DNA of 64,000 bases from Amycolatopsis sp. EV170708-02-1 (GTDB lineage: Bacteria; Actinomycetota; Actinomycetes; Mycobacteriales; Pseudonocardiaceae): NCBI RefSeq assembly GCF_022479115.1, contig NZ_CP092497.1:1798001-1862000 (forward strand), in the 5' to 3' direction. The notes under the pieces are model-generated. The model worked only from the letters and a program-made list of their open reading frames with translations, ran no database searches and had not been told where the DNA came from. This document shows positions 19 to 20,800 of this stretch, in pieces. Position 1 is the first letter of the stretch. Each line of letters starts with the position of its first letter. The position numbers and the translations under genes were made by a program.

Positions 19-1443
19 GTGAAGCTTCCGATGAAGTTCGTCGTGGCGCTGGCGGGTGTCGCCGCACTCGCCGCCGCTTCGGTGGTGTACGTGGTGCAGG
101 CCAAGGCGAAGAGCCCCGAACGGCAGGCGGACGCGACGGTCGCGGTGGATTCCTCGGGGCAGGTCGTGCTGGGGGAGCAGGGAAGGCTGCTGTTCCGCAA
201 CGGCGCGTCGGGGCCCGGTTACGGCAATGTCGCGTCGGTCCCCGTGTCCGATCCTGCGGGGCCGCGACGGATCAGTTCGCTCACTTGCGAACGGTTCTAC
301 ACCGCGGCGAACGGCGGCCTGTGCCTGGCGAAGGAGGCCACGCCGATGGCCGGCGCGGTCGCCCGGTTCGTCGATGCCGCGCTCGGCGACGTGAAGCGGG
401 TCGATGTGCCGGGAATCCCCAACCGCGCGAAGCTCTCACCCGGTGGCCGGATGGGCAGCTGGACCACCTTCGTCACCGGTGACTCCTACTCGACGCCCGG
501 CACCTTCTCGACGCGTACGGCCATCAACGACCGAGACGCGGAAGACGCGGCTCAAAGGGCGGTCGAGAATGTGCTGAAACGGCCGCCTGGCAAGAACGTC
601 GACAATCTGCGTGCCTGGCTGCGCAGGGTCGCGATCAACTCGGCCAAGGACCTGGCCCGGGAGCTCACGGCTCGTCGTGAAGTCCTGGACGAGGGAAATC
701 AGGAGAACACGGATCCGCGCGCGGACACCCGCGGTTCCGTCCAACTGCGGATGGACACGCTGCAGTTGCTCGACCGGACCTGGAGCTTCCTCGACAAGCC
801 CTCCCAGGAGAACGCCACCCTGTACCTGGAAGTGACCTTCGGACACCACAAAGAAGCGGAGCTGGCCGAGCGGTTGGGCGTCCAGCCGAGCGAGGTGCGG
901 AACCGGCGCTGGCGAGGCAAGAGGGCGCTCGGCGAGGCGGGCGCGGCCGCGGTCCTCGTCACCGACCCTGGCGAAGGAGCGAACCGGTGCCTGATCCCGA
1001 GCAGCCTCGTCGGCACCAGGACGGGCTCGCCGGAGCTGCTCGACAAGGTCCGGACACATGTCAAGGCCTGCGAGAAGTGCCGGAGGCGTCGCGACGACCG
1101 GAAAGGCCTGCTGAGGTTCGTCTTGGCCGTTCCGGGGCTGGCGTTCGCCGGAGACCTGCTCCACCGCCTGCTGCCGACGGCCAAGCACAAGGTCGCGGCC
1201 GCGAGTTTCGTGACGCTGGTGGCGGTCGCGGCCCCGTACGTCCCGATTCCCGGCTGGAACGACGCGTCGCCGTCCAGCCCGGCCACTTCGGCACCCTCGA
1301 CTCCGACTCTGGGGCCGCCCGCCCCGCTCCCGCCGGCGGTCGCGCCACCGCCGGCGCCGACGAATGCCGAGCCGACACCCGGTGCCCCGGCGCCCACCTC
1401 CGATTTCGAGGCTGGTTCCGGACCTCCCGAACGGCGGGGATGA
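19..1443 (+). CDS. Hybrid protein: TolB-like N-terminus joined to ECF sigma factor with membrane anchor
   Basis: Residues 1-25 form a signal-anchor (MKFVVALAGVAALAAASVVY). Residues about 40-168 resemble the first blades of a secreted TolB-like beta-propeller, ending at 'TFSTRTAI'. From residue about 170 the text changes to an ECF sigma factor: 'RDAEDAAQ', 'NLRAWLRRVAINSAKD' (region 2.2-2.4), then a region 4 helix-turn-helix with 'AELAERLGVQPSEVRNRR'. Next come a single 'CEKC' pair, one hydrophobic segment (about 380-410) and a Pro/Ala/Thr-rich tail. Sigma region 2.1 is missing and the propeller is cut short, so neither half is a complete family member. GTG at 19 follows an AAGGAG box; ATG at 31 is an alternative start. 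A cytoplasmic sigma factor behind a secretion signal makes no functional sense, so I suspect a deletion junction or misassembly near nt 520-530. Confidence 0.7.
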   Translation: MKLPMKFVVALAGVAALAAASVVYVVQAKAKSPERQADATVAVDSSGQVVLGEQGRLLFRNGASGPGYGNVASVPVSDPAGPRRISSLTCERFYTAANGGLCLAKEATPMAGAVARFVDAALGDVKRVDVPGIPNRAKLSPGGRMGSWTTFVTGDSYSTPGTFSTRTAINDRDAEDAAQRAVENVLKRPPGKNVDNLRAWLRRVAINSAKDLARELTARREVLDEGNQENTDPRADTRGSVQLRMDTLQLLDRTWSFLDKPSQENATLYLEVTFGHHKEAELAERLGVQPSEVRNRRWRGKRALGEAGAAAVLVTDPGEGANRCLIPSSLVGTRTGSPELLDKVRTHVKACEKCRRRRDDRKGLLRFVLAVPGLAFAGDLLHRLLPTAKHKVAAASFVTLVAVAAPYVPIPGWNDASPSSPATSAPSTPTLGPPAPLPPAVAPPPAPTNAEPTPGAPAPTSDFEAGSGPPERRG

Positions 1444-1488
1444 CGGGTGACCGGTCCGATCATCCAACGCCCGGAAACCAGGGCGGGC

Positions 1489-2526
1489 TCAGCCGAGGTG
1501 GACGACGGTACCGAGCCCCTCCGCCCGGGCCTGAGTGGAGATCGCCGCGTACAGCGCGACGTCGAGGACTCCCATGCCGAACGGGTTCAGCACCACATAC
1601 GGCGACGCGACCCCGTGCGCGCGGTGCCGTCCCGTCAGGACACCGCCCAAGGTGCCGTCGAGGGAGCGTGCCGACCCGGCAGCACCGGGACGCCCGAACA
1701 CGCCTTCCGCCATCAGACGGCCCAGCGGCCGGCGCGGGTTGTCGGCCACCAGGTCCACGTCGTCGACGTAGACCGCCGCCGCGTCGCGGAACGTCGCGTC
1801 CGTCAGATCACCGAGGGAGACATTGATCAGCAACGCGCCCGGCGCGGCCCAGTCCGGCTCGGCGTACCCCTCGTCCATCGTGGTCGTGAACACGGCGATC
1901 TCGGCCTCGGACACCGCTTCCCGCGCCGTCGAGCAGACCTGTACCGCAAGGCCGGGCAGCATGGCGGCCAGTGCCCGCGCGGCCTCCGGGGACCGGTCGT
2001 ACAGGGTGATCTTCCGCAGCGACGGCAGCCGTTCGGCGAGCAGCGCCGCGTGCATCCGGCCCTGCGCGCCGCAACCGACGACGGCCAAGGAAACCGCCCC
2101 GCCGTATCCGAGCGCGTCCACCCCCACCGCGCTCACCGCCGCCGTCCGGACCGCGCTCAGGAGGGCGGCCTCGATGATCGTGGTGATCCGGGCGGTCTCG
2201 GCGTCGAAGCACAGACCGATGCCGCCCGCGCGTTCCAGCCCGCTGGCGGGGTTGGACACGCTGGCGTTGATGATCTTCATGCCGTACGCCGACCTCGCCG
2301 CACCGGGCATCCCGATCGACCGGGTGTAGGCGCCTCGCGAGTTCTCCCAGCGCAGGTACGCCTCGGCGGGCAGGAGACCGATGCCGCGGTCGTGGTCGGC
2401 CAGTGTTTCGCGGACGACGTCCACCGGGGCGACGTTCGTCAGGCACTTGCGGACCTCTTCACGGGACAGCAGTGTCACCTCGCCCGCACCGGACAGGCCG
2501 CTGTCGGCGAGGTCGAACCAGCTCAT
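1489..2526 (-). CDS. SbnB-like dehydrogenase (ornithine cyclodeaminase family), predicted 2,3-diaminopropionate-forming
   Basis: A protein of 345 residues in the ornithine cyclodeaminase/mu-crystallin family. The NAD-binding Rossmann motif 'GCGAQGRMHAALLAERLP' sits mid-protein, and the N-terminal half carries 'RSIGMPGAARSAYGMKIINA', the family's substrate region. In siderophore and tuberactinomycin pathways SbnB/VioK-type members oxidatively hydrolyse N-(2-amino-2-carboxyethyl)-glutamate to L-2,3-diaminopropionate and 2-oxoglutarate. That reaction is inferred here because an SbnA-like synthase lies two genes upstream in the same operon. ATG at 2526 overlaps the stop of the carbamoyltransferase gene in an ATGA arrangement, which decides the start over longer in-frame extensions. 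An ordinary ornithine cyclodeaminase is the alternative but would not explain the SbnA-like partner. Confidence 0.88.
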   Translation of the reverse strand: MSWFDLADSGLSGAGEVTLLSREEVRKCLTNVAPVDVVRETLADHDRGIGLLPAEAYLRWENSRGAYTRSIGMPGAARSAYGMKIINASVSNPASGLERAGGIGLCFDAETARITTIIEAALLSAVRTAAVSAVGVDALGYGGAVSLAVVGCGAQGRMHAALLAERLPSLRKITLYDRSPEAARALAAMLPGLAVQVCSTAREAVSEAEIAVFTTTMDEGYAEPDWAAPGALLINVSLGDLTDATFRDAAAVYVDDVDLVADNPRRPLGRLMAEGVFGRPGAAGSARSLDGTLGGVLTGRHRAHGVASPYVVLNPFGMGVLDVALYAAISTQARAEGLGTVVHLG

Positions 2527-3449
2527 GCCGAGTCCTCCCCGGCACACCACTCGAGCGCGGCCATCGCGCTGTACAGCTTGTTCTCCGCCTGGGCGAAGGC
2601 GACGGAACGCGGCCCGTCGAGCACGTCGGCCGTGACCTCCTCGCCCCGGTGCGCGGGCAGGTCGTGCAGGAACAGCGCGTCCGGGCCTGCCGTCCACAGC
2701 TCCGCCGTCACCTGGAACGGCGCGAACACCGTGCGCCAGCCCGGGTCCGGTTTGGACGTTCCGGTGGTCTGCCATCGGGTGGTGTACACGATGTCCACGC
2801 CGTCAGGCAGGTCGAGGACGTCATGCCGCTCCACAATGGACGAACCATGCCGGGCGGCGTGCTTGCCCGCGCGCTCCAGCACCTCCGGATCGACGCCGTA
2901 GCCCGGCGGGGTGCGCAGGTGCAGTTCGGTGCCGGGGAAACGGCTGAGCGCGAGCGCCAATGCCGCCGCCGTGTTGTTGCCCTCGCCGAGGTACAGCATG
3001 CGGACGCCGTCGACGCGGCCGAAGCGCTGGACGATCGTCGTCAGATCCGCCAACGCCTGGGTCGGATGCTCGTCCGCGCTCATCGCGTTGACGACGGCCA
3101 TCCGGTCCTGCGCCGCGATGGCCCGCAGCTCCGCCGGATCGGCCGCCGTGCGCGCCACGAGGAAGTCCAGCATCGACGACAGCACGCGTCCGGTGTCCTC
3201 GATGGACTCCCCGGTGTTGGTCTGCAGGTCGTCCGGGCCGTACGCGATGATCCGGGCGCCCAGTCGCAGCGCGCCCGCGGAGAACGCGGTGCGTGTGCGG
3301 GTGGAGGTCTTGCGGAAGTGGATGCCGACGACCGCACCATCCAAAGTGGAGTAGTTCGCCCGCGGCCGTTCCGCAAGGCGGACGGCCCGGCCGACGATGG
3401 CACGCAGGTCGTCGTCGGTGAGGTCGTCGAGGGAGATGAGGTGACGCAA
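2523..3449 (-). CDS. Ornithine/aspartate carbamoyltransferase-family enzyme, acceptor uncertain
   Basis: A protein of 308 residues with the carbamoyl-phosphate motif 'STRTRTAFS' near residue 50, 'DEHPTQALADL' (the HPxQ motif) near 130 and the C-terminal 'FLHDLPAHRGEEV' where ornithine transcarbamylases have HCLP. The Cys that lies next to the ornithine side chain in OTC is replaced by Asp. The enzyme should transfer carbamoyl from carbamoyl phosphate to an amine. With diaminopropionate-forming genes on both sides, the inferred acceptor is L-2,3-diaminopropionate, giving 3-ureidoalanine, as VioL/CmnL are thought to act in tuberactinomycin pathways. The gene lies 10 nt after the SbnA-like gene and overlaps the SbnB-like gene by 4 nt. 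Plain argF is unlikely because no other arginine genes are nearby. Confidence 0.85.
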   Translation of the reverse strand: MRHLISLDDLTDDDLRAIVGRAVRLAERPRANYSTLDGAVVGIHFRKTSTRTRTAFSAGALRLGARIIAYGPDDLQTNTGESIEDTGRVLSSMLDFLVARTAADPAELRAIAAQDRMAVVNAMSADEHPTQALADLTTIVQRFGRVDGVRMLYLGEGNNTAAALALALSRFPGTELHLRTPPGYGVDPEVLERAGKHAARHGSSIVERHDVLDLPDGVDIVYTTRWQTTGTSKPDPGWRTVFAPFQVTAELWTAGPDALFLHDLPAHRGEEVTADVLDGPRSVAFAQAENKLYSAMAALEWCAGEDSA

Positions 3450-3459
3450 GAGGAACTCC

Positions 3460-4455
3460 TCAGGAGATCGCGGCCAGGGCGCGGGCGGTCACTTCGGGCA
3501 CTTCGCCGAAGTGACCGCGGACCCACGCGTCGGAGTAGATGGTGTCGAGATAGCGGTTGCCGTCGTCGGGGAACACGAGCACGCACCGGGAGCCGGGCGG
3601 GATGCGGTCGCGCAGCTTCGCGAGCGCGGCCACGGTCGCGCCTGAGGAACCGCCCGCGAGGATGGCCTCCCGGGCGACGAGCATCCGGCACGCCCGCACA
3701 CATTCGAGATCGGTCACGTGCACGACCTCGGTCACCGCGGACGTGTCGACCAGCGGCGGCCGTCGGCCGGCGCCGTGGCCCGGGATCCGGCGTTCTTCCG
3801 TCGGCACGTGGAAGATCGCGCTGCCGGCGGCGTCGACCGCGACCAGCTTCGTGGCCAGCCCTTCGCGCCGGATGTAGTCGGCGCAGCCACGCATCGTGCC
3901 GCCGGTGCCGACCGCGCAGAACAGGTAGTCGACGCGGCCGTCGAGCGCGTCGGCGATCTCGCGCATCGTGTGCTCGTGCGCCGCCGGGTTGAGCGGGTTC
4001 GCGTACTGATCGGGCCAGAAAGCGTCCGGCAGGAGCGCGAGGAGCTCCCGCACCCTGGCGATCCGGGCGCCGAGCAGGTCGCCGTCGACCGGGGCGGTGA
4101 CGACCTCGACCGTGGCGCCGTAGGCCCGCAGCAGCGCCAGGGTCTGCGCGGTCGTGCGGGTGTCGACGACGCACACCAGGTCGAGCCCGAAATACGCGCA
4201 CATCTGGGCGAGCCCGACACCGAGATTGCCCGACGTGGACTCGACGACCACCGATCTGCCCGGCACGAGCGTGCCGGAGCGGATCTCGCCGTGCAGCATG
4301 TTCAGCGCCGTCCGGTCCTTGACGCTGCCGCCGGGGTTGAACTTCTCCAGTTTCGCGAACACCCGGGAGCCTGTCAGCGGGACGACCCGGTCCAAGGCGA
4401 CCAGGGGAGTGTCCCCGATCGTCGCGAGCACACCGCCGATCTCAGCCGTGATCAA
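3460..4455 (-). CDS. SbnA-like N-(2-amino-2-carboxyethyl)-L-glutamate synthase (cysteine synthase fold)
   Basis: A 331-residue fold-type II PLP enzyme. The PLP lysine lies in 'NPGGSVKDRTALNML' (about residue 46), the substrate loop reads 'ESTSGNLGVGLAQM', and the phosphate-binding loop is 'VGTGGTMRGCADYIRR'. The loop has SGNLG rather than the SGNTG of CysK, which fits the SbnA branch. SbnA condenses O-phospho-L-serine with L-glutamate, the first step to L-2,3-diaminopropionate. The partner SbnB-like gene is in the same operon. The start overlaps the end of the dehydratase-like gene by 14 nt. A true cysteine synthase is possible from family resemblance alone, but the operon argues against it. 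Confidence 0.87.
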   Translation of the reverse strand: MITAEIGGVLATIGDTPLVALDRVVPLTGSRVFAKLEKFNPGGSVKDRTALNMLHGEIRSGTLVPGRSVVVESTSGNLGVGLAQMCAYFGLDLVCVVDTRTTAQTLALLRAYGATVEVVTAPVDGDLLGARIARVRELLALLPDAFWPDQYANPLNPAAHEHTMREIADALDGRVDYLFCAVGTGGTMRGCADYIRREGLATKLVAVDAAGSAIFHVPTEERRIPGHGAGRRPPLVDTSAVTEVVHVTDLECVRACRMLVAREAILAGGSSGATVAALAKLRDRIPPGSRCVLVFPDDGNRYLDTIYSDAWVRGHFGEVPEVTARALAAIS

Positions 4456-5386
4456 CGGACACCTGCTCTCTCCTCGCCCCCAGTGGTGGCGCCGCGACGT
4501 TCCCGCCGGAGACGACGGCGACCGCCGCCCTTCCCGGTGGCCCGGCGCGCCCGGTCAGGTGGGCGGCTGTCGCCACCGCACCGCTCAGCTCGGCGACCAC
4601 GCCGAACCGGTCGAACAAGAACGCCTGGGCGGCGACGATGCTTTCCTCGTCGACCGTCACGACGTCGTCCACGAGCGTTTTGACGTGCTCCCACGCGAGC
4701 TCGCCGAGCACCGGGGCGCGCAGGCCGTCGGCGATCGTCCGGTAGGTCCGCGACACCGGCCAGCGCGTCAGGCGGCCGGTGCGGAACGAGTCGGCCGCGT
4801 CGGCGGCGAGTTCGGGTTCCACGCCGACGACCCGCGTGCCCGGCGAGTACGCCTTGACCGCGACGGCGACGCCGGCGAGCAGGCCGCCGTTGCAGACCGG
4901 GACGAGGACGGTGCCCGCGTCCGGCAGATCCGCGACGATCTCCGCGCCGACCGTGCCGTGCCCGGCGATCACCGCGAAATCGGCCGACGTGATCAGGGTG
5001 GCGCCGGTGCGGGCCAGCAGTTCGGCCGTCGCGGATTCCCGTTCACCCGGTGGCACGACGATCACTTCGGCGCCGAGCGCGCGGACCGCGTCGACCTTCA
5101 ACGCGGGCGCCGTTTCGGGCAGCACCACCGTGGCCTTCACCCCTTGGCGGGCCGCGGCGTAGGCCACCGCGCGGCCGTGGTTGCCGGAAGACTGGGCCAG
5201 CACGTGGCCCGTCAGCCCGGAGACCGCGTTGAGCGCGCCGCGGACCTTGAACGAGCCGGTCCGCTGCCGGTTCTCCGGTTTGATCCACAGTCCGTCGACC
5301 GGCCCGAGCACCGGCGTGCGGCGCACGGAGCATCGGATCCGATCCGCGGCCCGCGCGACGTCGGCCCCGGTCACCAGGCGCGTCAC
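4442..5386 (-). CDS. Threonine/serine dehydratase-like PLP enzyme
   Basis: A fold-type II PLP protein of about 314 residues. The catalytic lysine is in 'QRTGSFKVRGALNAV', the substrate loop is 'SSGNHGRAVAYAA', and the PLP-phosphate loop reads 'VPVCNGGLLAGVAVA' where dehydratases usually have GGGGL. There is no C-terminal ACT domain, so it resembles the catabolic or serine-racemase size class. It is first in the four-gene operon. It may supply or remove a small amino acid for the diaminopropionate route, act as a diaminopropionate or ureidoalanine lyase, or racemise the product; the sequence does not decide. GTG at 5386 ('VTRLVTGADV') is preferred because the extra 22 residues from TTG at 5452 are low-complexity. 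Confidence 0.8.
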   Translation of the reverse strand: MTRLVTGADVARAADRIRCSVRRTPVLGPVDGLWIKPENRQRTGSFKVRGALNAVSGLTGHVLAQSSGNHGRAVAYAAARQGVKATVVLPETAPALKVDAVRALGAEVIVVPPGERESATAELLARTGATLITSADFAVIAGHGTVGAEIVADLPDAGTVLVPVCNGGLLAGVAVAVKAYSPGTRVVGVEPELAADAADSFRTGRLTRWPVSRTYRTIADGLRAPVLGELAWEHVKTLVDDVVTVDEESIVAAQAFLFDRFGVVAELSGAVATAAHLTGRAGPPGRAAVAVVSGGNVAAPPLGARREQVSVDHG

Positions 5387-5514
5387 CGGGTCACCACCCG
5401 GCCGGCCCTGCCCTTTTCTGCCCGCAACTCCGCCGAACTCCTTCGCGCCCAAGGCGGTCCGAAGTGGACCTCGGCCGATTCAACTTGGGCCGGACCGGCA
5501 CGGTCCATGAACAA

Positions 5515-5549
5515 CCGACCGGAACTTCGGGGGCGGAAGTTCCGGTCGG
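5515..5549 (-). terminator. Hairpin terminator after the cat operon
   Basis: A perfect 14-bp inverted repeat, CCGACCGGAACTTC (5515-5528) and GAAGTTCCGGTCGG (5536-5549), with a 7-nt G-rich loop. It lies between the catC stop and the start of the dehydratase-like gene, both on the minus strand, so it separates the two operons. There is no U-tract, as is usual for actinobacterial hairpin terminators. Confidence 0.7.
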
Positions 5550-5627
5550 CGCACCGCGCTCACCAACCGGAACGGCGGGCACACGGACCGCGATCGATCA
5601 GGAGACGAGGGGAGTTTCAGGGCACCG

Positions 5628-5909
5628 TCAGCCCGTGACCTTCGAGGGATGCGCCGCCAGCGGCGTGACCTCGATGTCCATGTACGGGAACAACGGCAAA
5701 CCGGACAACAGCGTGTGCAGCTCGTCGTGGTCCGCGACGTCGAGGATGGAGAAGTTCGCGTATTCGCCCGCGATCCGCCAGATCTGCGGCCACTTGCCTT
5801 CGCGTTGCAGCCGCTGGCTGTACGCCTTTTCCCGCGCGATGACGTCGGCACGCTCCGCCGGATCGAGGTCCGGTGGCAGGTGGACGTCCATGCGAACGTG
5901 GTAGAGCAT
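5628..5909 (-). CDS. catC: Muconolactone delta-isomerase
   Basis: A 93-residue protein of the usual CatC length, starting 'MLYHVRMDVHLPPDLDPAER' and carrying the family's 'REGKWPQIWRIAGEYANFSI' core and 'LPLFPYMDIEVTPLAAHPS' end. It isomerises (+)-muconolactone to 3-oxoadipate enol-lactone in the cytoplasm, the third step of catechol ortho-cleavage. It is last in the LysR-catB-catA-catC operon, 25 nt after catA, and is followed by the 5515-5549 hairpin. The next enzymes of the beta-ketoadipate route (PcaD, PcaIJ, PcaF) are not in this window. Confidence 0.96.
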   Translation of the reverse strand: MLYHVRMDVHLPPDLDPAERADVIAREKAYSQRLQREGKWPQIWRIAGEYANFSILDVADHDELHTLLSGLPLFPYMDIEVTPLAAHPSKVTG

Positions 5910-5934
5910 CGATCACTCCAAAAAGGACCTGTGG

Positions 5935-6786
5935 TCAGGGGCGTTCGGGGTCGAGGACGAAGCCGTACTCGATGGCCTCGCCGTCGCCCGACGGGCGTGG
6001 GTCCAGCAGCAGTTCCGGCTTGACCGCCGAAGCGATGTCGTCGTCGTTGTGCTCGTCGCCGGGGAAGTACAGCTGTGCGGTGAGCAGTTCATGGCCCGGT
6101 GCCGAGACCTTGACGTGCAGGTGCGCCGGGCGCCACGCGTGCCAGCCCGCCGCGGCGATGAGCTTGCCGCAGGCCCCGTCGGTCGGGATCTGGTACGGGG
6201 CGGGGCGCACGGTGTGGATCTCGAACCGGCCGTCGTCATCGGCGGTGAAGCTCGCGCGCAGGTTCCACTCCGGGATGTTCGGCGCGAACTGGGAGTAGAA
6301 GCCGTCGGCGTCGGCGTGCCACAGCTCGACCTTCGCGCCGGCCAGGGCGGAGCCGTCGGTCGAGGTGACCCGGCCGGTCCAGATCAGCGGCGTACCGGAC
6401 TCGTCCTCGCGCATCGGGACCGAACCGCGGGCACCCTGTTCGGGTGCGGCGGGCACGTAATACGGACCCTCGATGGTTCCCTTGTTGCCCTCGCGGTGCT
6501 CGGTCGCGACCTCTTCGACGACGTGCTCCACCCACACGTCGAGGAACAGCGGCCACTCGCCGTCCTCGCCCACGCTGATCAGCCACGCTTTGAGCGCGTT
6601 GTACTCGTCGTAGGTGACCTTGTGCTTCCGGATCGTGCCGTGCACGGCTTCCAGCACCTCGCGAGCCAGCAGGCTGACCCGGTCCTTGGGCGTTCCGGCG
6701 ACTCCGGCGAACTTGTCGCTCTTGAACCGTTCGGTCGCGTTGGCGCCGGACGCGGCCGCGGTGGCCGTCTCGTGGATGGCGGTCAT
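5935..6786 (-). CDS. catA: Catechol 1,2-dioxygenase
   Basis: A 283-residue intradiol dioxygenase. The N-terminal helical linker/dimer domain covers about residues 20-110; the beta-sandwich catalytic domain follows. The Fe(III) ligands are visible as the Tyr in 'IEGPYYVPAAPE', a second Tyr in 'RPAPYQIPTDG', and the two His of 'WRPAHLHVKVSAPGH'. It cleaves catechol to cis,cis-muconate with O2. ATG at 6786 is preceded by a good AAGGAGG box. It sits between catB and catC in one operon under the LysR gene at 8821. Confidence 0.97.
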   Translation of the reverse strand: MTAIHETATAAASGANATERFKSDKFAGVAGTPKDRVSLLAREVLEAVHGTIRKHKVTYDEYNALKAWLISVGEDGEWPLFLDVWVEHVVEEVATEHREGNKGTIEGPYYVPAAPEQGARGSVPMREDESGTPLIWTGRVTSTDGSALAGAKVELWHADADGFYSQFAPNIPEWNLRASFTADDDGRFEIHTVRPAPYQIPTDGACGKLIAAAGWHAWRPAHLHVKVSAPGHELLTAQLYFPGDEHNDDDIASAVKPELLLDPRPSGDGEAIEYGFVLDPERP

Positions 6787-6812
6787 GAATCCTCCTTGAT
6801 TCGTGGTGGGCG

Positions 6813-7916
6813 TCAGTGGTCCTGGCGGTAGCGCCGGAGCTTTTCGGGATCGATTTCGGCACCGAGGCCGGCGCCGGGGCGGACGGTGAGTTCGCCGTCG
6901 GTGATGCGCAGCGGCTCGGTGAGCAGGTCGTCGCTCATGTCGAGGAAGTTCGAGAGCTCGCCGGGGCGACGGGACGTCAGCTCGTAGGCCGAGCCGAACG
7001 CGACGGTGCACAGCGAGCCGAGCTGGCCGTCGATCTGGTTGCCCATCACGACCTCCAGACCGAGGCCCTCGGCGAGGTGGTGTGTGCGCTGCGAACGGGT
7101 GAAGCCGGTGCGGGCGGTCTTGATGCTGATCGCGGTGGCGGAGCCGCCGAGCACCTCACGGGTGACGTCGGCCGGGGTCACGGCGGATTCGTCGGCGATG
7201 AACGGAACGCCGATCTGCCCCACGAGCCAGCGCCTGCCGAGGACGTCGTCGGCCGGGCACAGCTCCTCGGCGAAGAGCAGATCGAGGTCGGCCATCTCCC
7301 GCATCGCCCGCGCCGATTCGGCGGCGGTCCAGCCGCGGTTGCCGTCGATGTAGAGGTCGACGCCGTCACCGAAGTGCTCTCGCAGCGCGCGCACGACGGC
7401 GGTGTCGAGCGACGTGGGTCGGCGGCCGACCTTGACCTTGAAGGTGCTGATGCCGTGGGTGTCGCGCATCCGCTCGGCTTCGGCGACCATCGCGGACGGC
7501 TCGTCGAAGCCGAGCATGTGGGACACGCGCATACGGTCGGTGTAGCCGCCGAGGAGTTCGGTCACCGACACGTCGAGGCTGCGGCCGAGCGCGTCCCAGA
7601 TGGCCATGTCGATGGCGGATTTCGCGGTCGGGTTGCCGACCGTGCGGGCGAGCCGGGTGTGCACCGTTTCGCGGTCGGGCAGGCTGAGACCGACGATCTG
7701 CGGGGCGAACAGGGAATCGATCACCGCGATGATCCCCGCCTGGGTCTCGCCGTAGGTGAACGGCCGCGGTGGTGCCTCGGCCACGCCGACGACGCCGTTG
7801 TCGGCGTGCACCCGCACGAGGACGTGCTCGGCGACGTGCACCTCTCCCGAAGCGAACTTCAGCGGCTTTCGGTACGGGATGGCGAACGGGATCGCCTCGA
7901 CTCGCGTGATCTTCAT
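6813..7916 (-). CDS. catB: Muconate cycloisomerase
   Basis: A 367-residue enolase-superfamily enzyme. The capping domain is followed by a barrel carrying 'STFKVKVG' (the KxK base pair), 'DLYIDGNRGW' (metal Asp), 'LLFAEELCP' (metal Glu) and 'PFIADESAVT' (metal Asp). It lactonises cis,cis-muconate to muconolactone. ATG at 7916 shares one base with the LysR stop (TGATG), so the regulator and pathway genes are translationally coupled. Chloromuconate cycloisomerases are close relatives, but pairing with CatA and CatC favours ordinary catechol breakdown. Confidence 0.95.
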   Translation of the reverse strand: MKITRVEAIPFAIPYRKPLKFASGEVHVAEHVLVRVHADNGVVGVAEAPPRPFTYGETQAGIIAVIDSLFAPQIVGLSLPDRETVHTRLARTVGNPTAKSAIDMAIWDALGRSLDVSVTELLGGYTDRMRVSHMLGFDEPSAMVAEAERMRDTHGISTFKVKVGRRPTSLDTAVVRALREHFGDGVDLYIDGNRGWTAAESARAMREMADLDLLFAEELCPADDVLGRRWLVGQIGVPFIADESAVTPADVTREVLGGSATAISIKTARTGFTRSQRTHHLAEGLGLEVVMGNQIDGQLGSLCTVAFGSAYELTSRRPGELSNFLDMSDDLLTEPLRITDGELTVRPGAGLGAEIDPEKLRRYRQDH

Positions 7917-8821
7917 CAGGTGTCCCCTGTGGATGGTGCGACGGAAGGAAAGACGTCCTCGAGCGCGTCGAGGACGGTCGTGACGAGCGGGGACGGGGTT
8001 TCGCGGTGCCAGGCCAGCGCCAGCTCCACGGTCGCCGCTCCCGCGAGGTCGCGGAACACGACACCGGCCAGGGGGAGGGCACGGGCCGAGGCAGGCACCA
8101 CGCCGACCCCCAGTCCGCCGGCGACCAGTGCCAGCAGGACCGCGGTTCCGGAGGCCTCGTGTAGTTGATGAGGCGTGAGCCCGGCCTCGCGGCAGCTGCG
8201 CGCGACGGCGTCGTACACGACCGAGTTGCGCCGGTCGTAGGTGACGAGCGGTTCGGTCCGCAGATCGGCCATCGCGACGACGGGCTCCACGGCCAGCCGG
8301 TGGTCGGCCGGCACGGCGAGGACCAGCGGCTCGCTCTCGATCACGCGGAAGTCGATGTCGTCCCCGGTGACCGGAGGGCGGAGCACCCCGATCCCCAGTG
8401 TTCCCGTGCGCAGGCGTTCGCACTGCTCCGCGGTCAGCAGGTCGGCGCGGATCTCCAGCTCCACCTGCGGCACCCGCTGGGCGAGCGCCCTGGCCAGATG
8501 CGGCAGATGGGAGAACGCCGCCGTGCCGGTGAACCCGACCCGGAGCAGGCCCAGCTTGCCTTCGCCGATACGCCGGACCCCGCGGATCCCGACGTCCAGC
8601 CCCGCGAGCACGCGTCGGGCTTCGGCCAGGAAGAACTCACCCGCCGGTGTCACCCGGACCTGCCGGGTGGTCCTAGCCAGCAGGACGACGCCCAGTTCGT
8701 CCTCCAGCTGGCGGATGGTGTGCGAGAGCGCGGGCTGCGCGACGTGCAGCTGCTCGGCCGCCCGGCCGAAATGACATGTCTCGGCGACGGTGACGAAGTA
8801 ACGCAGGTGACGAAGTTCCAT
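7916..8821 (-). CDS. LysR-type regulator of the catechol operon
   Basis: A 301-residue LysR family protein. The N-terminal winged helix-turn-helix spans about residues 1-60 ('MELRHLRYFVTVAETCHFGR', 'LHVAQPALSHTIRQLEDELG') and the effector-binding fold runs from about 90 to 295. It is the first gene of the catBAC transcript, unlike the classical divergent catR arrangement, so it probably autoregulates together with the pathway. cis,cis-Muconate is the usual effector for this family. A symmetric T-N11-A type site lies 85 nt upstream (8906-8928). Confidence 0.92.
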   Translation of the reverse strand: MELRHLRYFVTVAETCHFGRAAEQLHVAQPALSHTIRQLEDELGVVLLARTTRQVRVTPAGEFFLAEARRVLAGLDVGIRGVRRIGEGKLGLLRVGFTGTAAFSHLPHLARALAQRVPQVELEIRADLLTAEQCERLRTGTLGIGVLRPPVTGDDIDFRVIESEPLVLAVPADHRLAVEPVVAMADLRTEPLVTYDRRNSVVYDAVARSCREAGLTPHQLHEASGTAVLLALVAGGLGVGVVPASARALPLAGVVFRDLAGAATVELALAWHRETPSPLVTTVLDALEDVFPSVAPSTGDT

Positions 8822-9152: not shown

Positions 9153-9920
9153 TCAGAGCAGTTCGAGCCCGCCATCGATGGTGAGGACCTGGCCAGTGAG
9201 CCATCCGGAGCCGGGGTCGGCCAGACGCAGGAGCCAGGTGGCCACCTCCTCGGGCTCGCCGCGCCGTCCCAGCGGGATGCGGTCGGCTTCGTCGTGTTTG
9301 ATCCGGTCGACCATGTCCGCCGAGAGCCCGGCCGCGGTCAGTGCGTCGCTTTCGGTGGGGCCCGGGGCCACCGCGTTGACCCTGATCCGGTCGGGGGCCA
9401 GTTCCAGAGCCCAGCTTCGTGTGAGGTGCTCCAGGGCGCTCTTGGTGGCGGCGTAGTGGGCGGCGTGGGCCATGGGCCGGTGACCGTAGGTGCTGGACAC
9501 GTTCACGATCGCCCCGCTGGTCCGGCGCAGGTGCGGCAGCGCGGCGCGAGCGAGCAGGCTGGGCGCGGTGACGTTGAGGCGGAACAACTCGTCGATGCGG
9601 GACGCGGTGGCCTCGGCCAGTGGCATCAAGGCGGTGGCGCCGGCGTTGTTCACCAGGACGTCCACCCCGCCCCATCGGTCGACCGCCGCCTGCACGACGG
9701 CATCCGGTGCCTCGTCGGCGCAGATGTCGGCGGCGAAGGCGGCGATACCAGGGTGACGGCGCGCGGTGGCGTCCAAGGCTTCCTGGCGGCGACCGACGCC
9801 GAGCACGCGTGCTCCGGCGCGGGCGAAAGCGAGCGCGGCGGCGCGCCCGATCCCCGAGCCCGCTCCGGTGACGATCACGACCCGGTCGGTGAACTCCGCT
9901 TCCGCGCCCATCGCTGCCAT
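9153..9920 (-). CDS. Short-chain dehydrogenase/reductase
   Basis: A classical SDR of 255 residues: coenzyme loop 'VTGAGSGIGRAAALAFARAG' near the N-terminus, 'NNAGA' near 90, catalytic Ser in 'VNVSSTYG', YxxxK in 'HYAATKSALEHL', and C-terminal 'WLTGQVLTIDGG'. The substrate cannot be told; FabG-like oxidoreduction of a hydroxy/keto compound with NAD(P) is expected. ATG at 9920 has a clear AAGGAG box. It is divergent from the ArsR-family gene at 9965, and a palindrome lies between them, so the ArsR protein is the probable repressor. Confidence 0.9.
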   Translation of the reverse strand: MAAMGAEAEFTDRVVIVTGAGSGIGRAAALAFARAGARVLGVGRRQEALDATARRHPGIAAFAADICADEAPDAVVQAAVDRWGGVDVLVNNAGATALMPLAEATASRIDELFRLNVTAPSLLARAALPHLRRTSGAIVNVSSTYGHRPMAHAAHYAATKSALEHLTRSWALELAPDRIRVNAVAPGPTESDALTAAGLSADMVDRIKHDEADRIPLGRRGEPEEVATWLLRLADPGSGWLTGQVLTIDGGLELL

Positions 9921-11864: not shown

Positions 11865-14800
11865 ATGGGCTCACGTACCGGCTCCAGGTGGCTCGCGGTG
11901 GCGACGGCGTTCGTCGTCTCGATCGGAATGGGTGTGGTGGTCACCCCGGCTCCCGCACGGGCGGCGAGCCCCGGGGTCGGCACCCTGGTCAACGCGTTGG
12001 CCGGGCCCACGAACAGCTTCGCCACCTGGAGCAAGGGTCTCGGCACGATCGGGCAGCTGGCGAAGGCGCTGCCCGCCGTGCAGACCAGCCCCGGCGCCGC
12101 GCTCGGGTTCGACACCCTGGCCCAGGAGGCGTTCAACACCGGCGCCAAGAAGCTCTCCGCCGCGGTCGACGACGCCGATCTGGACATCGACCAGCCGATC
12201 ACGTTGTCGGCCGACCGGACCGGGACGCTCAAGACCACGCTGAGCACCGTCGGCGAGGACAAGCGACTCGATCTCACCCTGACCGTCTCCCGCGTACTGC
12301 AGAACCAGGCGCTGAACATCCCGGTCCCGATCGGGGAGGGCGGCAACGCCCCGCAGTCGGCGTTCTCCTCCACCGGCGGCGTGCGGCTCACCGTCGGCAC
12401 CACGGTGAAGCTGACCTTGATCTGGGACAAGGCACACGACAAGGCCTACCTCCTCAACGACGGAACGACGCCGGCGTTCACCGTCGACGCTTCGGCCGGA
12501 TTCCCCGACGCGAACGCCATCAAGGCGGTCAACGCCGCCATCGGTGTCCTCGGGGTGAAGCTCGTCGAGACCGACACCTCGCTGGACCTGAAGGCGCATT
12601 TCGCCGCCACGATCAACGACCCGGACAACGACGGGCGGCTGGCGTTCGTCAACAACGACGGCACCGCGGGCGAGCTGGCCCAGAACGGTTCGCTGGCCGG
12701 TCTGGTCAGCTTCGGCTTCGCCAGCCCGGCAGGATCGCTGAACGGCTCGCTGCACCTGGCCGCCGCACCTGCCGCCTCCTTCTCGCTGGAGCTTCCCTCG
12801 GTGGACGCCAAGATCGGCCTCAGCTGGCCGGACATCGCCACCGGGGCCCCGGAGATCAAACCGGAAGGCATCGGCACCGTCGGCCCGTTCCTGAACATGA
12901 CCCCGCGCGACCTGGCCACCGGCCTCGCACAGCTGGCGACGACGCTGACCTCGATCCAGCGCGCGAAATGGGGCGACGCGGCGAACCCGATCGGCAACCT
13001 CGATCTGCCGTTCCTCAAGGGCACCCTCGCCGACGCGATCCAGCTCAACGAGTCGATCAAGAAGTTCTTGCAGGACAACACGAAGTCCGCGGCGGACCCG
13101 ACACAGGCGGGTGAGCCGCTGTTCGTGTCGCTGCAGCAGATGCTCGACAAGCTCAACACCGCGGCGAACCTGCCCGGCGGCGCCAAGATCGGCATCTCCG
13201 ACGTCCACTTCCCGCCGGGTTCGACCAAGCTCGACTTCAAGATCACGTTGTCCCGCAAGGCACCGGCGACGGCCGTGGATCTCAACGCGGCCGCGGCCGC
13301 GACGTCCGGACCGGCGGGCAACCCGGCCAAGACCAGCTACACGCAGACCACCCTCAAGGACGAGAACCAGGCCTGGAAGATGGGCGAGTTCGCGGGACGG
13401 CGCGTCGTCGCCGGTGCGGCGGGCGCGACCGTCGAGAACAACGACGGCAACACGCTCTTCCTCCAGGCGCCGGGCTGGACGCCGGTGATCCCGGCCGCCA
13501 ACGCGCCGTACACGATCTCCGGGATGCAGGGCGACGTCGGCGTCGTCCAGCTCGGCAACGACCTGAAGACCGGCGGTCGCGGTGTCGGCGAGGCCAACGC
13601 CGTCAACGCCACCGCGAAGGTCAAGCCCAGTTACGACGCCGCGGTCACCCTCGTGCTCGACCTGCAAAACCCGACCGTGCACAACCCGCCGATCGAGCAG
13701 AAGAACCCGGACGGCAGCACGACACTGGTCGGCGCGACGCCGACCGGGCCGGACCGGGTGCTGCTGCGCACTTCCGGCGCTCCGTCGCTGTTCACCGCCG
13801 ATTTCCCGATGGACGCGGGTATCGACCTGTTCGCCAACGCCGGCTTCCTCCAGGTGCAGCTCAAGGGCGCGGCGCACGTCTGCCACCCGAACGCGGGCGC
13901 CGACTGTGCCGGGACACCGGGCGCGGACGACCATATGGCGCAGGTGAAGTTCAAGGACCTCGGGGACCTGACCTTCGGCGCGGTCGTGGACAAGTTGCTG
14001 CACGACCCGGGATCGCTGCTCGACTTCCAGGTGCGGGTCCGCGGTGCCGGTGGCGTCGACGCCACCGCTCCGGGGACGGGCGACTTCCTGAAGGGCGCCT
14101 CCGCGCACGCCGGATTCACCTGGAACGACCTCACCAAGCTCACCGGACCCGACGGGCCGCAGTTCAGCACGAGCGACCTGTCCGAGCTGGTGAATTTCGA
14201 CTTCGACCCGGCCAACCCGAAGGCCCTCTTCTCGATCCTCCTCAAGACGTTGCAGACCCTGAACGCGTCGATCAGTGACGCCTCGCCATCGGGCGCGGCG
14301 GTGTTCGGCACGAAGATCCCCCTGGTCGGCCGTTCGCTGAAGGATCTGTTGAAGGCCGACCAATCCGGCTCCGGCCCGACCGTGAGCTACGGCCCGAATT
14401 CCGTGAAGGACACCGCACGCACCGTCGAAAAGGGCAACGCCTTCCCGCCCTCGCTCGTCGGCCGCACGGTCGTGGCCGGCACCCAGGTGGGCATCGTCGG
14501 CAGTGTCACGCCGGACACTCTGGTCCTGGCCGGACCTTGGGCCAGCCAGCCCTCTCCGTCGACGTCGTACGTGATCCGGTCCGAACTGGACGACGTGATC
14601 TCCTTGCTGGAGGCGGCGCCGTCCGACAACCTGCAACGGCTCGTCCAGACCATCAACACGCGGTTCAAGGACAGTGTCCCGGTGACGTTCGAGTACGCCG
14701 AACCCGGCGGAACGCCGTCGCTGATCATCCGGCTCGACTGGAAACGCGCGTACCACACCAGCACGCCTGTGCAGTTCGACTTCAGCCTGCCGTCCGGCGG

Positions 14801-17800
14801 CCAGCGGGTCGCCGGGGTACAGGGCGACGGCTCGGTCTCCCTCGGCGTCGGCGGTCAGGTCAAGATGGGCCTGGTCGTACCGCTGCAGCCGGGTGCCGGC
14901 CCGGCCGACGCGAACGCGCTGCGCGTGCTCGACGACTCGAAGATCGGCGTGAAACTCGACGCCACCGTGGAGAACGCCACCATCGCGACCACGGTGGGCC
15001 CGCTGAGCGTGTCGCTCGGTGATCCCAAGTCGGCGGACAAGGCGACCGCGAAGGCGTCTTACTCGATCGACCTCGCCAAGGGCGGCGGCACCGGCGCACC
15101 GGTCAGCTTCACCGACTTCCTCGGCGCGGTCGGCCCGACGATCAACGCCGGGAGTACCGCGGTCGACTGCGGGCTCGACGGTGGCACGCCACTGGCGTTG
15201 TGCGCCAAGTTGCCGTTGTACATCAGCGAGGACGGCGGTGCGACCTACAGCAAGGTGATCACCGACGACACGAAGTCGAACAACTTCGCCTTGCGCCTGC
15301 CCAAGGCGACCGCGGCCGACGACTACTTCAACCTCGGCGGCGCGGCGATCGACGGGCATCCGCGGCTGGAGACGCCGGATCCGGCGCTGCTGGCGGACGC
15401 GCTCGCGGCCAAGCTGATCGACTTCGGCAGGCTCGACGGCCTCGACAGCTACCTCAACCTGGTGGAGCAGGCGCTCAACACCGCCAGCTTCGGCGGCAAG
15501 CTGCCGCTGCTCGGTGACGATCTCCAGCAGGGCGCGGACTTCATCGGGAAACTGCGCACCGCGATCCACAACGCGCTGGACCAGCTGCCGGCGAACGGCC
15601 ACTTCGACGACATGGCCGCGGTGCGCGGCTGGGTCAACGACCAACTCGGCGGGAAGCTCGCCGCCGCGGGCCTGAACCCGGACACGGTCACCGTGGACAC
15701 CCTGTGCAAGACGCCGCTGGGCACCGTCGGCGCTCCGACGGTCAAGCTGCACGAAGGCGCGACAGCGGCGGACAAGACCTACCGCTATGTCGTCGCGTCG
15801 TATGTGACGATCGACGGCGCGAAGAAGCAGGCCAAGGCGAGCGATCCCGGCCAGATCACCAACGGCCCGGCGGCACTGTCCACAACGGACTCGCTCGACA
15901 TCGCGTGGGAACCGGTCACCAACGCGTCCGGCTACCTGGTGTTCCGTGAAGAAGGCGGTGCCTTCAAGCAGATCGCGGACGTCACCGACGCCAAGTTCAC
16001 CGACGTCGGGGCCGCTTCGACCGGCGGGGCGCCGGAGAACCCGGCCGAGAACCCGCGGCCGCACGATTGCTCGTACAACGACCTCGACGCGGTCACGATC
16101 AGCCTGAACGTCAGCCAAGGTGATTTCAGCGGTGATCTGCTGAACTGCGCCGGGCTGCCGTCCGGCCACGAATGCCTCAAGAAGACCGTGCCGCTGGACC
16201 TGGGCATCCCCGGGTTCTCGTTGAAGGCCGACGGCGGCGCCGGCCCGGAGGTCCAGCTCGGCTGGCGGCTGCATCTGGCCATGGGCATCAGCCGGAGCGA
16301 GGGATTCTTCGTCGACACCAAGGACTCCGCGCAACCGGAGTTCGCGGTCGGGCTGAACGTCACGCTGCCGAACAAGATCAACGCGCAGCTCGCGTTCATC
16401 AACATCACCGCGGAGAACTGCACGAAGCAGAAGAGCGAGGACGAGTGCAACCACGCGGCCGCCCCGGCGAACGACGCGGGTGTCCTGCCGCTGTTCGGCG
16501 GCGCGTTCAAGATCGACCTGGTGGCGCCGGACGACCCGACCAACGGCAGGCTGCATCTGACCGATCTGCAGAACGCCGGGCTGGACCGGCTCGCCGACGT
16601 CAAGCTGCACGCGAGCGCGGACATCAACTGGCTGCTCAAGGCGCGGCCGGGCGAGGACGCCGGGTTCCCCGGCATCCAGGCGAACTTCCGGCTGCACTGG
16701 GCGTGGAACAACGTCAAACCGGGGACCAACAGCGCCGACGGCGGCAACTCCCCGCTGACACTGGCGTTCGACAAGGTGGCCATCGACAGCGGCGAGATCT
16801 TCGGCAAGATCCTCGGCCCGATCGTGAACAAGATCAAGCAGGTGACCGGTCCGCTCGATCCGGTGATCAAGACGCTGTACGCGCCGATCCCGGTGCTTTC
16901 GGATCTGTCGCATCTGGCGGGCGGCGGTGACGTCACGATGGTGTCGATCGGCAAGGCGTTCAGCACGATCGCCGGCGGCCCGGACCTGAAGTTCGTCGAC
17001 ACCATCGCCGGCGTCGTCAACTTCATCAACAATTTCCCGACCTGTACCGACAAGTGCCTCATCCCGCTCGGGTCGTTCGAACTCGGCGGACAGAAGGCAC
17101 TCGACACCACCGTGACCCCGGACAACACCGAGAGCCTGATCAGTGCGAAGAAGGACGCCGGTGGCGGCACCGCCTTCACCCCGATCCTCGGTGCGATCAA
17201 CGGCAAGAACTCCAACCCGAAGTCGGTCGGGCCGATGACCACCCAGGCGTCGGCTGCCGGGTTCAGCTTCCCGGTGTTCGAGAAGCCCGCGTCGCTGTTC
17301 AACGTGCTGCTCGGCGGGGACGTGGACCTGGTCAAATTCGACTCGGGTCCGCTGCGCCTCGGCTTCGACTGGCGTCAGCAGTTCGGGCCGGTGTACGCGC
17401 CGCCGCCGGTGGTGATCACCTTGCACGGCTCGGCGTCGGTGACGCTGCGCATCGTCGCGGGCTTCGACACCTTCGGCATCCGCAAGGCGTTCGAAGCCGC
17501 CCGCGCCGGCGAACTCGACCTGTCGACCGTGGGGCAGGCGTTCCTGCAGAGCCTGTTCTTCTACACCACCGAAAACGGGAAGCCGATCCCGGTGGTGTCG
17601 TTCACCGGCGAACTCGCCGCCGGGGCGGCCGTCACGGCGGTGATCATCACCGTCGGCATCGAAGGCGGGGTCGGGCTCACGGTCTCGTTCCTGTGGAACG
17701 ATCCCAACCACGACGGGAAGTTCCGGATCACGGAGTTCCTGCAAACGGCGCTGAACAACCCGATATGCCTGTTCACCGTGTCGGGGCGGCTCTATGTCTT

Positions 17801-20800
17801 CCTCAAGCTGTATGTGACGGTCGGCTTCGGCCCGTTCTCGGTTTCGTTCAGCTTCACGATCGTCGACGTCACGCTGCTCGACTTCACCGCGACACCGAAC
17901 TGCACGCCACCACCACCGAAACTCGGCGGGCTCAGCGGTGACGGCAAGACGCTCGTGGTGTACGCGGCCGCGCTCGGTCACACCGCCCAGCGCGGTGGCG
18001 GCGCGGGCGACCCGTACGAGTCGAACAACCAGGAGAAGGACACCGTCAAGATCACGTCGCTGCACGACTACGCGAACCCGGCGAACCCGGCGTTCACCGG
18101 TGTGGCCGTGGACATGCTCGGGATCCGGCGCGAGTTCCGGAACGCGAATATCGAGCGGGTGGTCGTGGACGGCCGCGGTTACGGCAAGCCGATGAGCGTG
18201 ACGTTCATCGGGGACGCCAAACAGGACACCGCGAAGGACGGCCCACCGCCGCCGACCGCGCAGTTCGACCGTGACGCGATCGTGTTCGGCGGCGAGAAGA
18301 ACGACCAGATCAAGACCGGTATCGGCAACTCGTGGGTCGATGGCGGCAAGGGTGACGACACCATCGTCACCGGTGACCGCACCGTGCTCGCCGCGGACCG
18401 GAAGAGCTATGTCCGAAACGAGGCGAAGGCGCGCGTCGCGGGCGGCCCCGGCGTCGACAGCATCACCGTCGGCAACGGCCTGGACGTCGTCGCGGGTGAC
18501 TCGAGCCTCGGCGCGCCTCCGGTGACGTCGGTCGGCTTGAAGGAGCTGAAGAACGACGGTCGTGACGGTGGCGACCCGATCGCGGACGGCACCGGCGGTC
18601 CGACGGTCTCCGTGCCGAACTGGGCGATCCTGCCCGATCCGGCGGGCGGGACCGGGAGCGGCGACGGCAACGACACGATCAAGGTCGGGCTCGCGAAGTC
18701 GACGGCGTTCGGCAACGGCGGTGACGACACCCTCGGTGTCGCGGCCGACGATCCGCTGAAGGACGTGCCGACGCTTCCGCAATCTCTCTTCGTCTCCCCG
18801 GGCGCGATCCTCGTCGGCGGCGACGGCAGCGACCGCTTCGCCGGCGGTACCGGACCGGACGAGATCTACACCGCGGGCAAGCTCGACCCCGGCATCGACG
18901 GCTACGGCTCGGACGACGCCAACACCACGGGTGGCCCGGCAGGTGGGCCGATCAACACCGTCGACACCGGCTCCGGTGACGACAAGGTGTTCGGCGGCAA
19001 GGGACAGGACCGGGTGACCGGCCACTCGACGAAGACGCAGAAGGACGACTTCCGCGGTGGTGGCGGCAACGACATCCTGTTCGGCGGGTTCGGGGCGGAC
19101 ACTCTCTACGGTGGGCCGGACGACGACTACGTGATCGCCGAACCGTCCACGTTGGACTTCCCGGACCCGGCGAAGACCGACGACTACGGGCCGCTCTACT
19201 TCGTCACGCACACGCCGCTCCCGCAGGGCGTGAGCCCGTCGCACAAGACGCTGGTCGGCGGCCTCGGCCGGGACCACATCATCGGCGGTGACGGCGGCGC
19301 GGACGTGTACGGCGACAAGCAGACGACGCCGTGCAAGGCCGGTTCGCCACTTCCGTCGACCCCGGTCGACGAGACGGTGAACGACGTGCTCGACGGCAAC
19401 GACCGCGTCATCGGCGGCGCCGGGGTGGAGAACGTGCGGGCCGGCGGCGGTGACGACAATGTCGACGCCGAGGCGAACGAAGATCTGGTGTGCGGAGAGA
19501 AGGGCAAGGACGTCCTGCACGGCGGCCGCGACGCGGACCAGGTCTGGGGCGGCTCGGACGACGACGCCGTCTACGGCGACACCGGGACCGACACCCTGTA
19601 CGGCAACGACGGCGTCGACACGATGTTCGGTGGCGACGACCCCGACACCATCGAAGGGAACAACGGCAAGGACTGGATCTCCGGTGGCCTGGCCGGCGAC
19701 GTGATCGTCGGCGGCACCCGGGCGCCGGGTCAGCCGGACGACGGCGACAAGCTGTTCGGCGACGGCGGCACCGACACGATCATCGGTGACAACGGTGATC
19801 CGGCGGCGGCAGGCGGGCCGGTGTTCGACCTGGCCAGCAGCGCGGATGCCGCGCTCGGCGGCGACGACACCATCGGCGGTGGCCTCGACACCGACGCGCT
19901 GTACGGCGGGTTGGAGAACGACACCGTCTCCGGCGGGAAGGATCCGGACCGCATCGAAGGCAACCCCGGTGCGGACACGCTGAACGGCGAGACCGAGGCC
20001 GACGACATCATCGGCGGCAGCCACCAGACGCCCGGTGACCCGGCGGCGAAGAACGCGGCGGGCTATCCCGACGCGGGTGACACGATCTCCGGCGGCGACG
20101 CCGACGACGTGATCACCGGTGACAACGCCACGATCACCGGTACGGGTGGCGCGGACTCCGGCGACCCGGTCACCCGTGGCCGCGGTCTGACGGCGGGCAG
20201 GCACGTGGTGCTGTTCGACCTCGGCCACGCCCCGAACCCGGCGAACGCCGGCGGCGACACCATTTCCGGCGGCAACGCCACGGACGTCGTCTACGCGCAG
20301 TCCGGGATGGACACCGTGCACGGCGACGCCGGGGACGACTACGTGGAAGGCGACCAGGACGCCGACAAACTGTTCGGCGACTCCGGACAGGACGATCTCG
20401 TCGGCGGTTCCTCCGCCGTGGAGATGGGCGGCGGCCAGGGCACCGTCGGCCAGCTCGACACCGGGGACACCATCTCCGGCGGCGAGGACGCGGACGTGAT
20501 CACCGGCGACAACGCGCTCGTGACCAGAGACGCGGGCATCCCGAAGAGCCCGATCACCCAGGGCCGGTTCGACACGGACCTGCCCGGCGCGCTCCCGATG
20601 ACACAGCGCAGCATCCAGCTGTACGACCTCGGTGACACGCCGGTGCCGAACACCTCCGGCGGCGACGACATCACCGGGGACAACGGGTGCGACGCGATCC
20701 TCGGCCAGTCCGGGAACGACCGGATCAAGGGCGGCAACGACGGCGACCACGCCGAAGGCGGCCCAGGCCGGGACTGGATCGAAGGCAACAACGGCGACGA

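Follow-up and report, generated by a model that had tools for sequence, protein, structure and literature searches.

A predicted ureidoalanine operon of Amycolatopsis that may serve a distant paralogous non-ribosomal peptide synthetase

INTRODUCTION

In staphyloferrin B biosynthesis, L-2,3-diaminopropionate is made by two enzymes, SbnA and SbnB. Comparable SbnA-type and CmnK-type enzymes are combined with a 2,3-diaminopropionate transcarbamylase (DPTCase) in the pathways of the tuberactinomycins (CmnB/CmnK, VioL) and of zwittermicin A. Other genes of the tuberactinomycin module are VioB, VioK and CmnL. Tuberactinomycin clusters also hold a non-ribosomal peptide synthetase (NRPS), a VioJ-type desaturase and capreomycidine genes. 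Precursor genes unlinked from their NRPS are already known from cahuitamycin, where a starter-unit gene lies apart from the NRPS and two starter pathways converge (PMC4757757).

Here we analyse a compact four-gene operon in a 64,000-nucleotide stretch of the Amycolatopsis sp. EV170708-02-1 chromosome (NZ_CP092497.1, positions 1,798,001 to 1,862,000; 'the window'). It encodes an SbnA-like enzyme, an SbnB-like enzyme and an OTC-family carbamoyltransferase, with a fourth, dehydratase-like enzyme (DHT) that carries a CNGG motif and is additional to those of the tuberactinomycin and zwittermicin A modules. It differs from these modules further in that the NRPS linked to it in relatives ends in a thioesterase–MFS (TE-MFS) fusion, and in that the window genes are themselves unlinked from the NRPS. 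No NRPS adjoins the operon as in a tuberactinomycin cluster; desaturase and capreomycidine genes were not searched for. We conclude that the operon is probably the precursor half of a divided pathway, supplying ureidoalanine in trans to a distant paralogous NRPS. A precursor would thus come from another locus, as in cahuitamycin biosynthesis; unlike in that case, two copies of one cluster appear to have lost complementary halves in Amycolatopsis, with both scars still readable.

RESULTS

The operon encodes a predicted ureidoalanine pathway

Four tightly spaced open reading frames (ORFs) occupy window positions 1489-5386 on the minus strand, where a preliminary description of this DNA had placed four coupled genes. 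They read in the order DHT, SbnA-like, carbamoyltransferase, SbnB-like, with overlaps of 14 nt (DHT/SbnA) and 4 nt (carbamoyltransferase/SbnB) and a gap of 10 nt (SbnA/carbamoyltransferase). The two motifs singled out in that description were also recovered, HDLP at carbamoyltransferase residues 262-265 and CNGG at DHT residues 165-168. Its label 'SbnA-like' holds, the protein scoring 401 bits against TIGR03945 (NCBIfam cut-off 349.95). 'SbnB-like' needs qualification: the best NCBIfam family is TIGR03944, but at 195.9 bits against a cut-off of 326.9, and the best solved relative is CmnK (7cxs, 253 bits; the next match, 4m54, has 123 bits). In this respect, and in having no siderophore synthetase among the adjoining window ORFs, the operon departs from the staphyloferrin B system, with which it shares the two-enzyme diaminopropionate route.

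The carbamoyltransferase falls below both general ornithine-carbamoyltransferase cut-offs of NCBIfam (252 versus 306 and 247 versus 281 bits), while retaining the carbamoyl-phosphate motifs SxRT (STRT, residues 49-52), HPxQ (HPTQ, 128-131) and HxLP (the HDLP given above). According to PMC4581275, (T/S)RWQTTG and HDLP mark DPTCases, replacing the DxxxSMG and HCLP of ornithine carbamoyltransferase. The window protein has this signature, its 240s loop reading TRWQTTG (residues 224-230), and has neither DxxxSMG nor HCLP. All 15 residues tabulated there for the Saccharothrix DPTCase have counterparts, compared by position number with the published table rather than by alignment to the Saccharothrix sequence; the numbers are identical in the middle of the protein, off by one in SxRT and 13 later in the C-terminal part. 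The genome's own ArgF carries DTWTSMG and HCLP and is 35% identical to the window protein (PyrB, 28%). The enzyme is thus not ArgF, and the earlier view of a diaminopropionate-plus-carbamoyl module of the VioL/CmnL kind is supported by sequence, the likeness being one of motifs and of the CmnK match.

The SbnA-like enzyme, using O-phosphoserine and glutamate, and the SbnB/CmnK-like enzyme would make L-2,3-diaminopropionate, and the DPTCase would carbamoylate its side-chain amino group. Together the three should make L-3-ureidoalanine (albizziine), a reading that we regard as well supported by sequence and by the chemistry published for these families. No second set of this kind turned up elsewhere in the genome with OTCace_N, which has three places (ArgF, PyrB and the window carbamoyltransferase), or with SbnB, with one match at E ≤ 1e-30; SbnA lay outside the genome-wide search.

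Among 120 listed database relatives of the carbamoyltransferase (68-84% identical), HDLP is present in 120 and accompanied by (T/S)RWxTTG in 119, and the specific name given, where the source gives one, is ornithine carbamoyltransferase. DPTCase-type proteins thus appear to be misnamed in databases. Proteins of this type also occur outside Actinobacteria near NRPS-like ORFs, in Paenibacillus (L116) and Chryseolinea (L126), at 61% identity, which suggests horizontal transfer.

The four genes are NRPS-linked in most relatives

Genomes are given here as G numbers (G000, the window genome; G108, A. keratiniphila; G129, A. roodepoortensis; the others likewise relatives) and loci as L numbers. When 390 genomes of the family were searched with SbnB, 77 had a match at E ≤ 1e-30, and 20 regions around the best matches were examined. 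The regions were picked for their SbnB relative; in six of them the whole four-gene set recurs in unchanged order at 70-97% identity (G104, G108, G119, G123, G129 and G137), so the grouping is not a matter of chance. In a seventh genome, G107, the contig ends within the transferase, leaving DHT, SbnA and a partial transferase gene. A separate transferase search found 226 loci, of which 80 named ones were kept, some with flanks shortened by contig ends. All four genes are present at high identity in five (A. keratiniphila, A. orientalis, A. sp. WAC 01376, A. bullii and A. roodepoortensis), each on a contig already counted among the six complete-block genomes. DHT relatives, at 44-48%, are encoded at eight more. 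In 65 of the 80, the flank contains an NRPS-like ORF as judged by a crude motif test.

The block is NRPS-linked in six of the seven other Amycolatopsis genomes (G104, G107, G119, G123, G129 and G137), the exception being G108. Two NRPS genes directly precede it in five; in G107, the NRPS2 end, DHT, SbnA and the partial transferase share one contig and NRPS1 lies on another. By Pfam, G104 NRPS1 has two AMP-binding, one condensation and three carrier domains, and NRPS2 has two condensation, one AMP-binding and two carrier domains followed by a thioesterase and an MFS transporter domain; a TE-MFS end beyond the Pfam-read genomes was assigned by similarity. An 812-aa HTH/NB-ARC/TPR regulator precedes the NRPS genes in G104. 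At L134:8904-15962 and L155:7298-15811 the last NRPS protein ends in thioesterase and MFS domains, a synthetase fused to a likely exporter.

A deletion scar precedes the window operon

DNA homology between the window and the G104 block covers window 1487-5406 and stops 23 nt inside the NRPS2 gene. Directly upstream, window 5396-5601 is 92.7% identical to G104 L134:3976-4181, the NRPS1 upstream region and first codons, and window 5396-5624 is 89.6% identical to G119 L136:4714-4942. Across the junction runs a short leader in which the likely ribosome-binding site, TTG start and first codons of NRPS1 are fused to the NRPS2 end with its final codons and stop, the stop overlapping the DHT start (Table 1). 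In G104, catC and DHT are separated by the regulator and both NRPS genes; in the window they adjoin. Since block homology ends inside NRPS2 and the adjoining stretch matches the NRPS1 start, the regulator, NRPS1 and NRPS2 were deleted here, and the former NRPS promoter region now precedes the precursor genes. The site in A. keratiniphila is arranged likewise, though its remnants are shorter. The absence of an adjacent NRPS, noted in the preliminary description, is thus true of the window yet is a derived state.

Table 1. Positions of the operon genes, scar elements and neighbouring genes in the window
Feature	Position	Strand	Basis
SbnB/CmnK-like dehydrogenase (ornithine cyclodeaminase family)	1489-2526	-	family and structure-relative scores
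Carbamoyltransferase of DPTCase type	2523-3449	-	motifs, NCBIfam
SbnA-like 2,3-diaminopropionate synthesis enzyme	3460-4455	-	above TIGR03945 cut-off
DHT, fold-type II pyridoxal phosphate enzyme (threonine dehydratase/serine racemase family), CNGG phosphate loop	4442-5386	-	
14-codon leader (TTG ... TGA), NRPS1 first codons in frame with NRPS2 end	5383-5427	-	alignment, translation
Remnant of NRPS1 upstream region and first codons	5396-5624	-	DNA alignment to G104, G119
Palindrome GACCGGAA-N15-TTCCGGTC, former NRPS promoter region	5517-5547	.	exact pattern search
cat genes catC, catA, catB, catR	5628-8821	-	names read from translations, not family search

The reciprocal scar at a second site

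A paralogous NRPS cluster is present in the window genome at C1:5,679,950-5,694,810, 3.88 Mb from the operon. In this paralogue, NRPS1 is 73% and the NRPS2 tail 80% identical; NRPS1 has three AMP-binding domains and NRPS2 one, with the same TE-MFS end. Here it is the block that is lost: by tblastn and DNA alignment, DHT codons 1 to ∼31 are joined to the last ∼37 SbnB codons (the matches overlap by 28 nt), and ∼3.7 kb is missing relative to A. roodepoortensis, whose site is complete. An intact second site with the block is present in G129 and G137. The block is also gone from this site in G104 and G108, where the junction is different and cleaner.

Unrooted trees place the window block nearest G104, G108 and G119, and in them the second-site NRPS copies group with those of G129 and G137 in a separate clade; the two sites thus represent distinct lineages (G119 and G123 are assigned to the first by tree rather than by cat location). 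The junctions differ between the window genome and G108 at the cat site, and between the window genome and G104/G108 at the second site. This could also be explained by one deletion followed by further erosion, and we do not claim that the deletions were independent. We think it rather likely that duplicated NRPS clusters lost complementary genes, leaving a pathway of two mutually dependent halves that have a common operator and depend on the single regulator still present.

In G098 (L175:8666-11917) the second site has been emptied: the regulator, a palindrome (9454-9486) and the downstream KKWTTRV gene are kept, while the NRPS and block are gone, which we read as their joint loss. In the window genome, at L155:3-8894 (G000:C1:5.679-5.688 Mb), no stop separates the remaining regulator from NRPS1, the two sharing an open frame of 3541 aa, perhaps through a small indel at the regulator end.

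The two loci share a palindrome and a distribution

The promoter-region palindrome of Table 1 has two exact matches in the 9.66-Mb window genome, one upstream of the window block and one upstream of the second-site NRPS. In the eight genomes carrying the cluster it is found near all 11 NRPS1 or former-NRPS1 starts, and 11 of its 13 matches lie at clusters (the others at G119 C63 and G129 C4). A reversed control pattern matched in six of 80 genomes, none of them among those eight, and 24 Mb of first-order Markov simulation gave no palindrome match. Since both loci would have the palindrome by shared descent, it is its retention after both deletions, not its presence, that suggests use.

With 10 first-look candidates scored per genome, the NRPS2 tail was found at E ≤ 1e-200 in eight of 80 Amycolatopsis genomes. 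The carbamoyltransferase, at ≥76% identity, is found in exactly the same eight (in G107 as a partial gene at a contig end). Neither occurs at those thresholds in the remaining 72, of which 13 have more distant transferases (51-67%). NRPS and block are unlinked in two of the eight, G000 and G108, and each of the three two-site genomes has kept a single block and one or more NRPSs. The A1, A2 and A3 adenylation (A)-domain codes, extracted with home-made motif anchors and with the tenth letter, K, added rather than read, do not differ between the NRPS linked to the block in G104 and the distant one in the window genome.

The fourth enzyme

DHT accompanies the block in every complete case; at E ≤ 1e-85, it was found in 296 genomes of the class only in G000 and G604 (64%). 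Against the NCBIfam threonine/serine dehydratase families, no cut-off was reached among the matches listed (25 of 36), the best being 233.5 versus 452 bits. DHT resembles the serine racemase/threonine dehydratase family in its family match, in SSGNHG, which the serine racemases 3hmk and 5x2l also have (SAGNHA stands at this place in 2gn0, a catabolic threonine dehydratase), and in Glu, Ala and Asp residues that align with those of 3hmk and 5x2l. These three positions presumably form the racemase metal site, and we likewise presume a role for the second Ser of SSGNH. DHT therefore looks serine racemase-like, though weakly so because other DHT-family members share SSGNH. Its phosphate loop sets it apart, being CNGG and not GGGG; in an alignment of the window protein with 120 database matches (its own record included), 72 of the 121 sequences have CNGG, mostly the closest ones.

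DHT may be a racemase, the likeliest way in which it would supply or modify a further free amino acid. Since Pfam condensation counts leave no space in the NRPSs for a separate epimerization domain, we tentatively propose, at somewhat less than even confidence, that it supplies a free D-amino acid.

Alternative readings of the operon

The four genes could be a decaying, non-functional leftover of the deleted cluster. The NRPS that once followed the promoter is gone, and SbnB is the least constrained of the genes, with a ratio of non-synonymous to synonymous substitution rates (dN/dS) of up to 0.28. Nevertheless, none of the four ORFs is interrupted in either genome that lacks a linked NRPS, the promoter region and in-frame leader are retained, and the searched parts of the block-less paralogous NRPS are free of stops. 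dN/dS is low, at 0.05-0.28 for the four genes over all six pairs of four genomes, and the value for the two genomes without a linked NRPS (0.08-0.28) resembles that for the two with one (0.085-0.19). We consider such decay unlikely.

A different acceptor for the transferase, whether another diamine (2,4-diaminobutyrate, as in padanamide, or 2,3-diaminobutyrate) or an NRPS-tethered residue, is also improbable. For another diamine speaks a disagreement between sources: PMC6022934 assigns TRWQTTG and TRWQSMG to DPTCase and its diaminobutyrate counterpart, DBTCase, in the order opposite to PMC4581275. For a tethered residue, the timing of carbamoylation in viomycin is debated (PMC10880069). Against another diamine, the adjoining SbnA and SbnB/CmnK-type genes indicate 2,3-diaminopropionate, and the residues agree with the Saccharothrix list.

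The preliminary description proposed free albizziine, a glutamine/asparagine analogue, as the end product. A full enzyme set with neither transporter nor NRPS adjacent in the window fits this, but the scar makes the NRPS loss secondary, the block is NRPS-linked in six of the seven other genomes found with it, no exporter is left within the operon, and a paralogous block-less NRPS survives under the same palindrome. We have dropped this proposal as quite improbable.

A second cluster type, found at L040, L041, L042, L043, L046 and L047 (Amycolatopsis G110, G134, G099, G118, G104 and G155), fits the free-amino-acid idea better than the window operon does. All six loci encode SbnB (∼52%), SbnA (∼40%) and a DPTCase-type transferase (∼51%). 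L040 and L047, the two read gene by gene, have no NRPS by the motif test and add an asparagine-synthase-like protein, an unclassified protein of ∼337-381 aa and a LysE/RhtB-type exporter, and L040 a small protein that is CDGSH-like by reading of its translation, with no NCBIfam match.

Finally, a metallophore such as ethylenediaminedisuccinate (EDDS), which Amycolatopsis japonica makes by SbnA/SbnB-like chemistry without an NRPS, is hardly credible as the product: EDDS lacks a ureido group, DPTCase motifs are present in the transferase, and the block goes with an NRPS.

Neighbouring sequence

A plus-strand ORF at window 19-1443 has a membrane-type N-terminus and a weak match to sigma-70 region 2 (20.3 bits, below cut-off); window bases 1-526 are 92% identical in A. 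keratiniphila. Beyond the cat genes, a giant plus-strand ORF (11865-22811, 3648 aa) looks secreted, with a signal-peptide-like start, and is conserved beside the cat genes in G104.

DISCUSSION

We propose an ancestor with two full cluster copies, each consisting of a regulator, NRPS1, NRPS2-TE-MFS and then the four genes. The window site would have lost the regulator and both NRPS genes and kept the promoter and four genes; the second site would have lost the four genes and kept its NRPS genes. With a common palindromic site upstream, both loci are probably co-regulated. The window operon would feed the distant NRPS in trans, and the fused MFS domain would export the peptide.

Several points weigh against supply in trans. 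VioL has been proposed to act on a tethered residue, according to PMC10880069, so free ureidoalanine is not certain. The palindrome could be mere common inheritance, or a terminator, and has a background of ∼0.2 per genome in cluster-free relatives (15 places in 14 of the 72 cluster-free Amycolatopsis genomes, one of them the emptied second site of G098). If the deletions are recent, the low dN/dS may reflect the time before them; they are not datable, since the species order is weakly supported (rpoB tree support of 51 and 82 at nodes around G000, G104, G108 and G129). An attempt to assign ureidoalanine to one A domain was abandoned, codes and domain similarity giving no answer: the best matches beside other DPTCases are ≤44% identical, and none of the four codes equals the one that recurs there. 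That code, DLPGVAEVG, is present in 26 of 107 A domains extracted beside other DPTCases (loci among L058-L133, e.g. L063, L074, L079) and is itself a candidate for ureidoalanine (or related) specificity.

Given that unlinked precursor genes are known from the cahuitamycin work (PMC4757757), the new element is the complementary double deletion with both scars. Literature surveyed by title and abstract opening held no matching description of cross-cluster supply or of reciprocal loss of duplicated clusters; we do not claim priority. If complementary loss is the correct reading, the single block of G104 would serve two versions of the NRPS, with three and four A domains.

In genome mining, each cluster is taken to be complete in itself, whereas the NRPS-free operon and the precursor-free NRPS described here make sense only together. 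The deletion scars, the complete relatives, the emptied site of G098 and the shared palindrome make the idea that duplicated clusters can become obligate partners directly testable, and the case points to uncharacterised ureidoalanine peptides.

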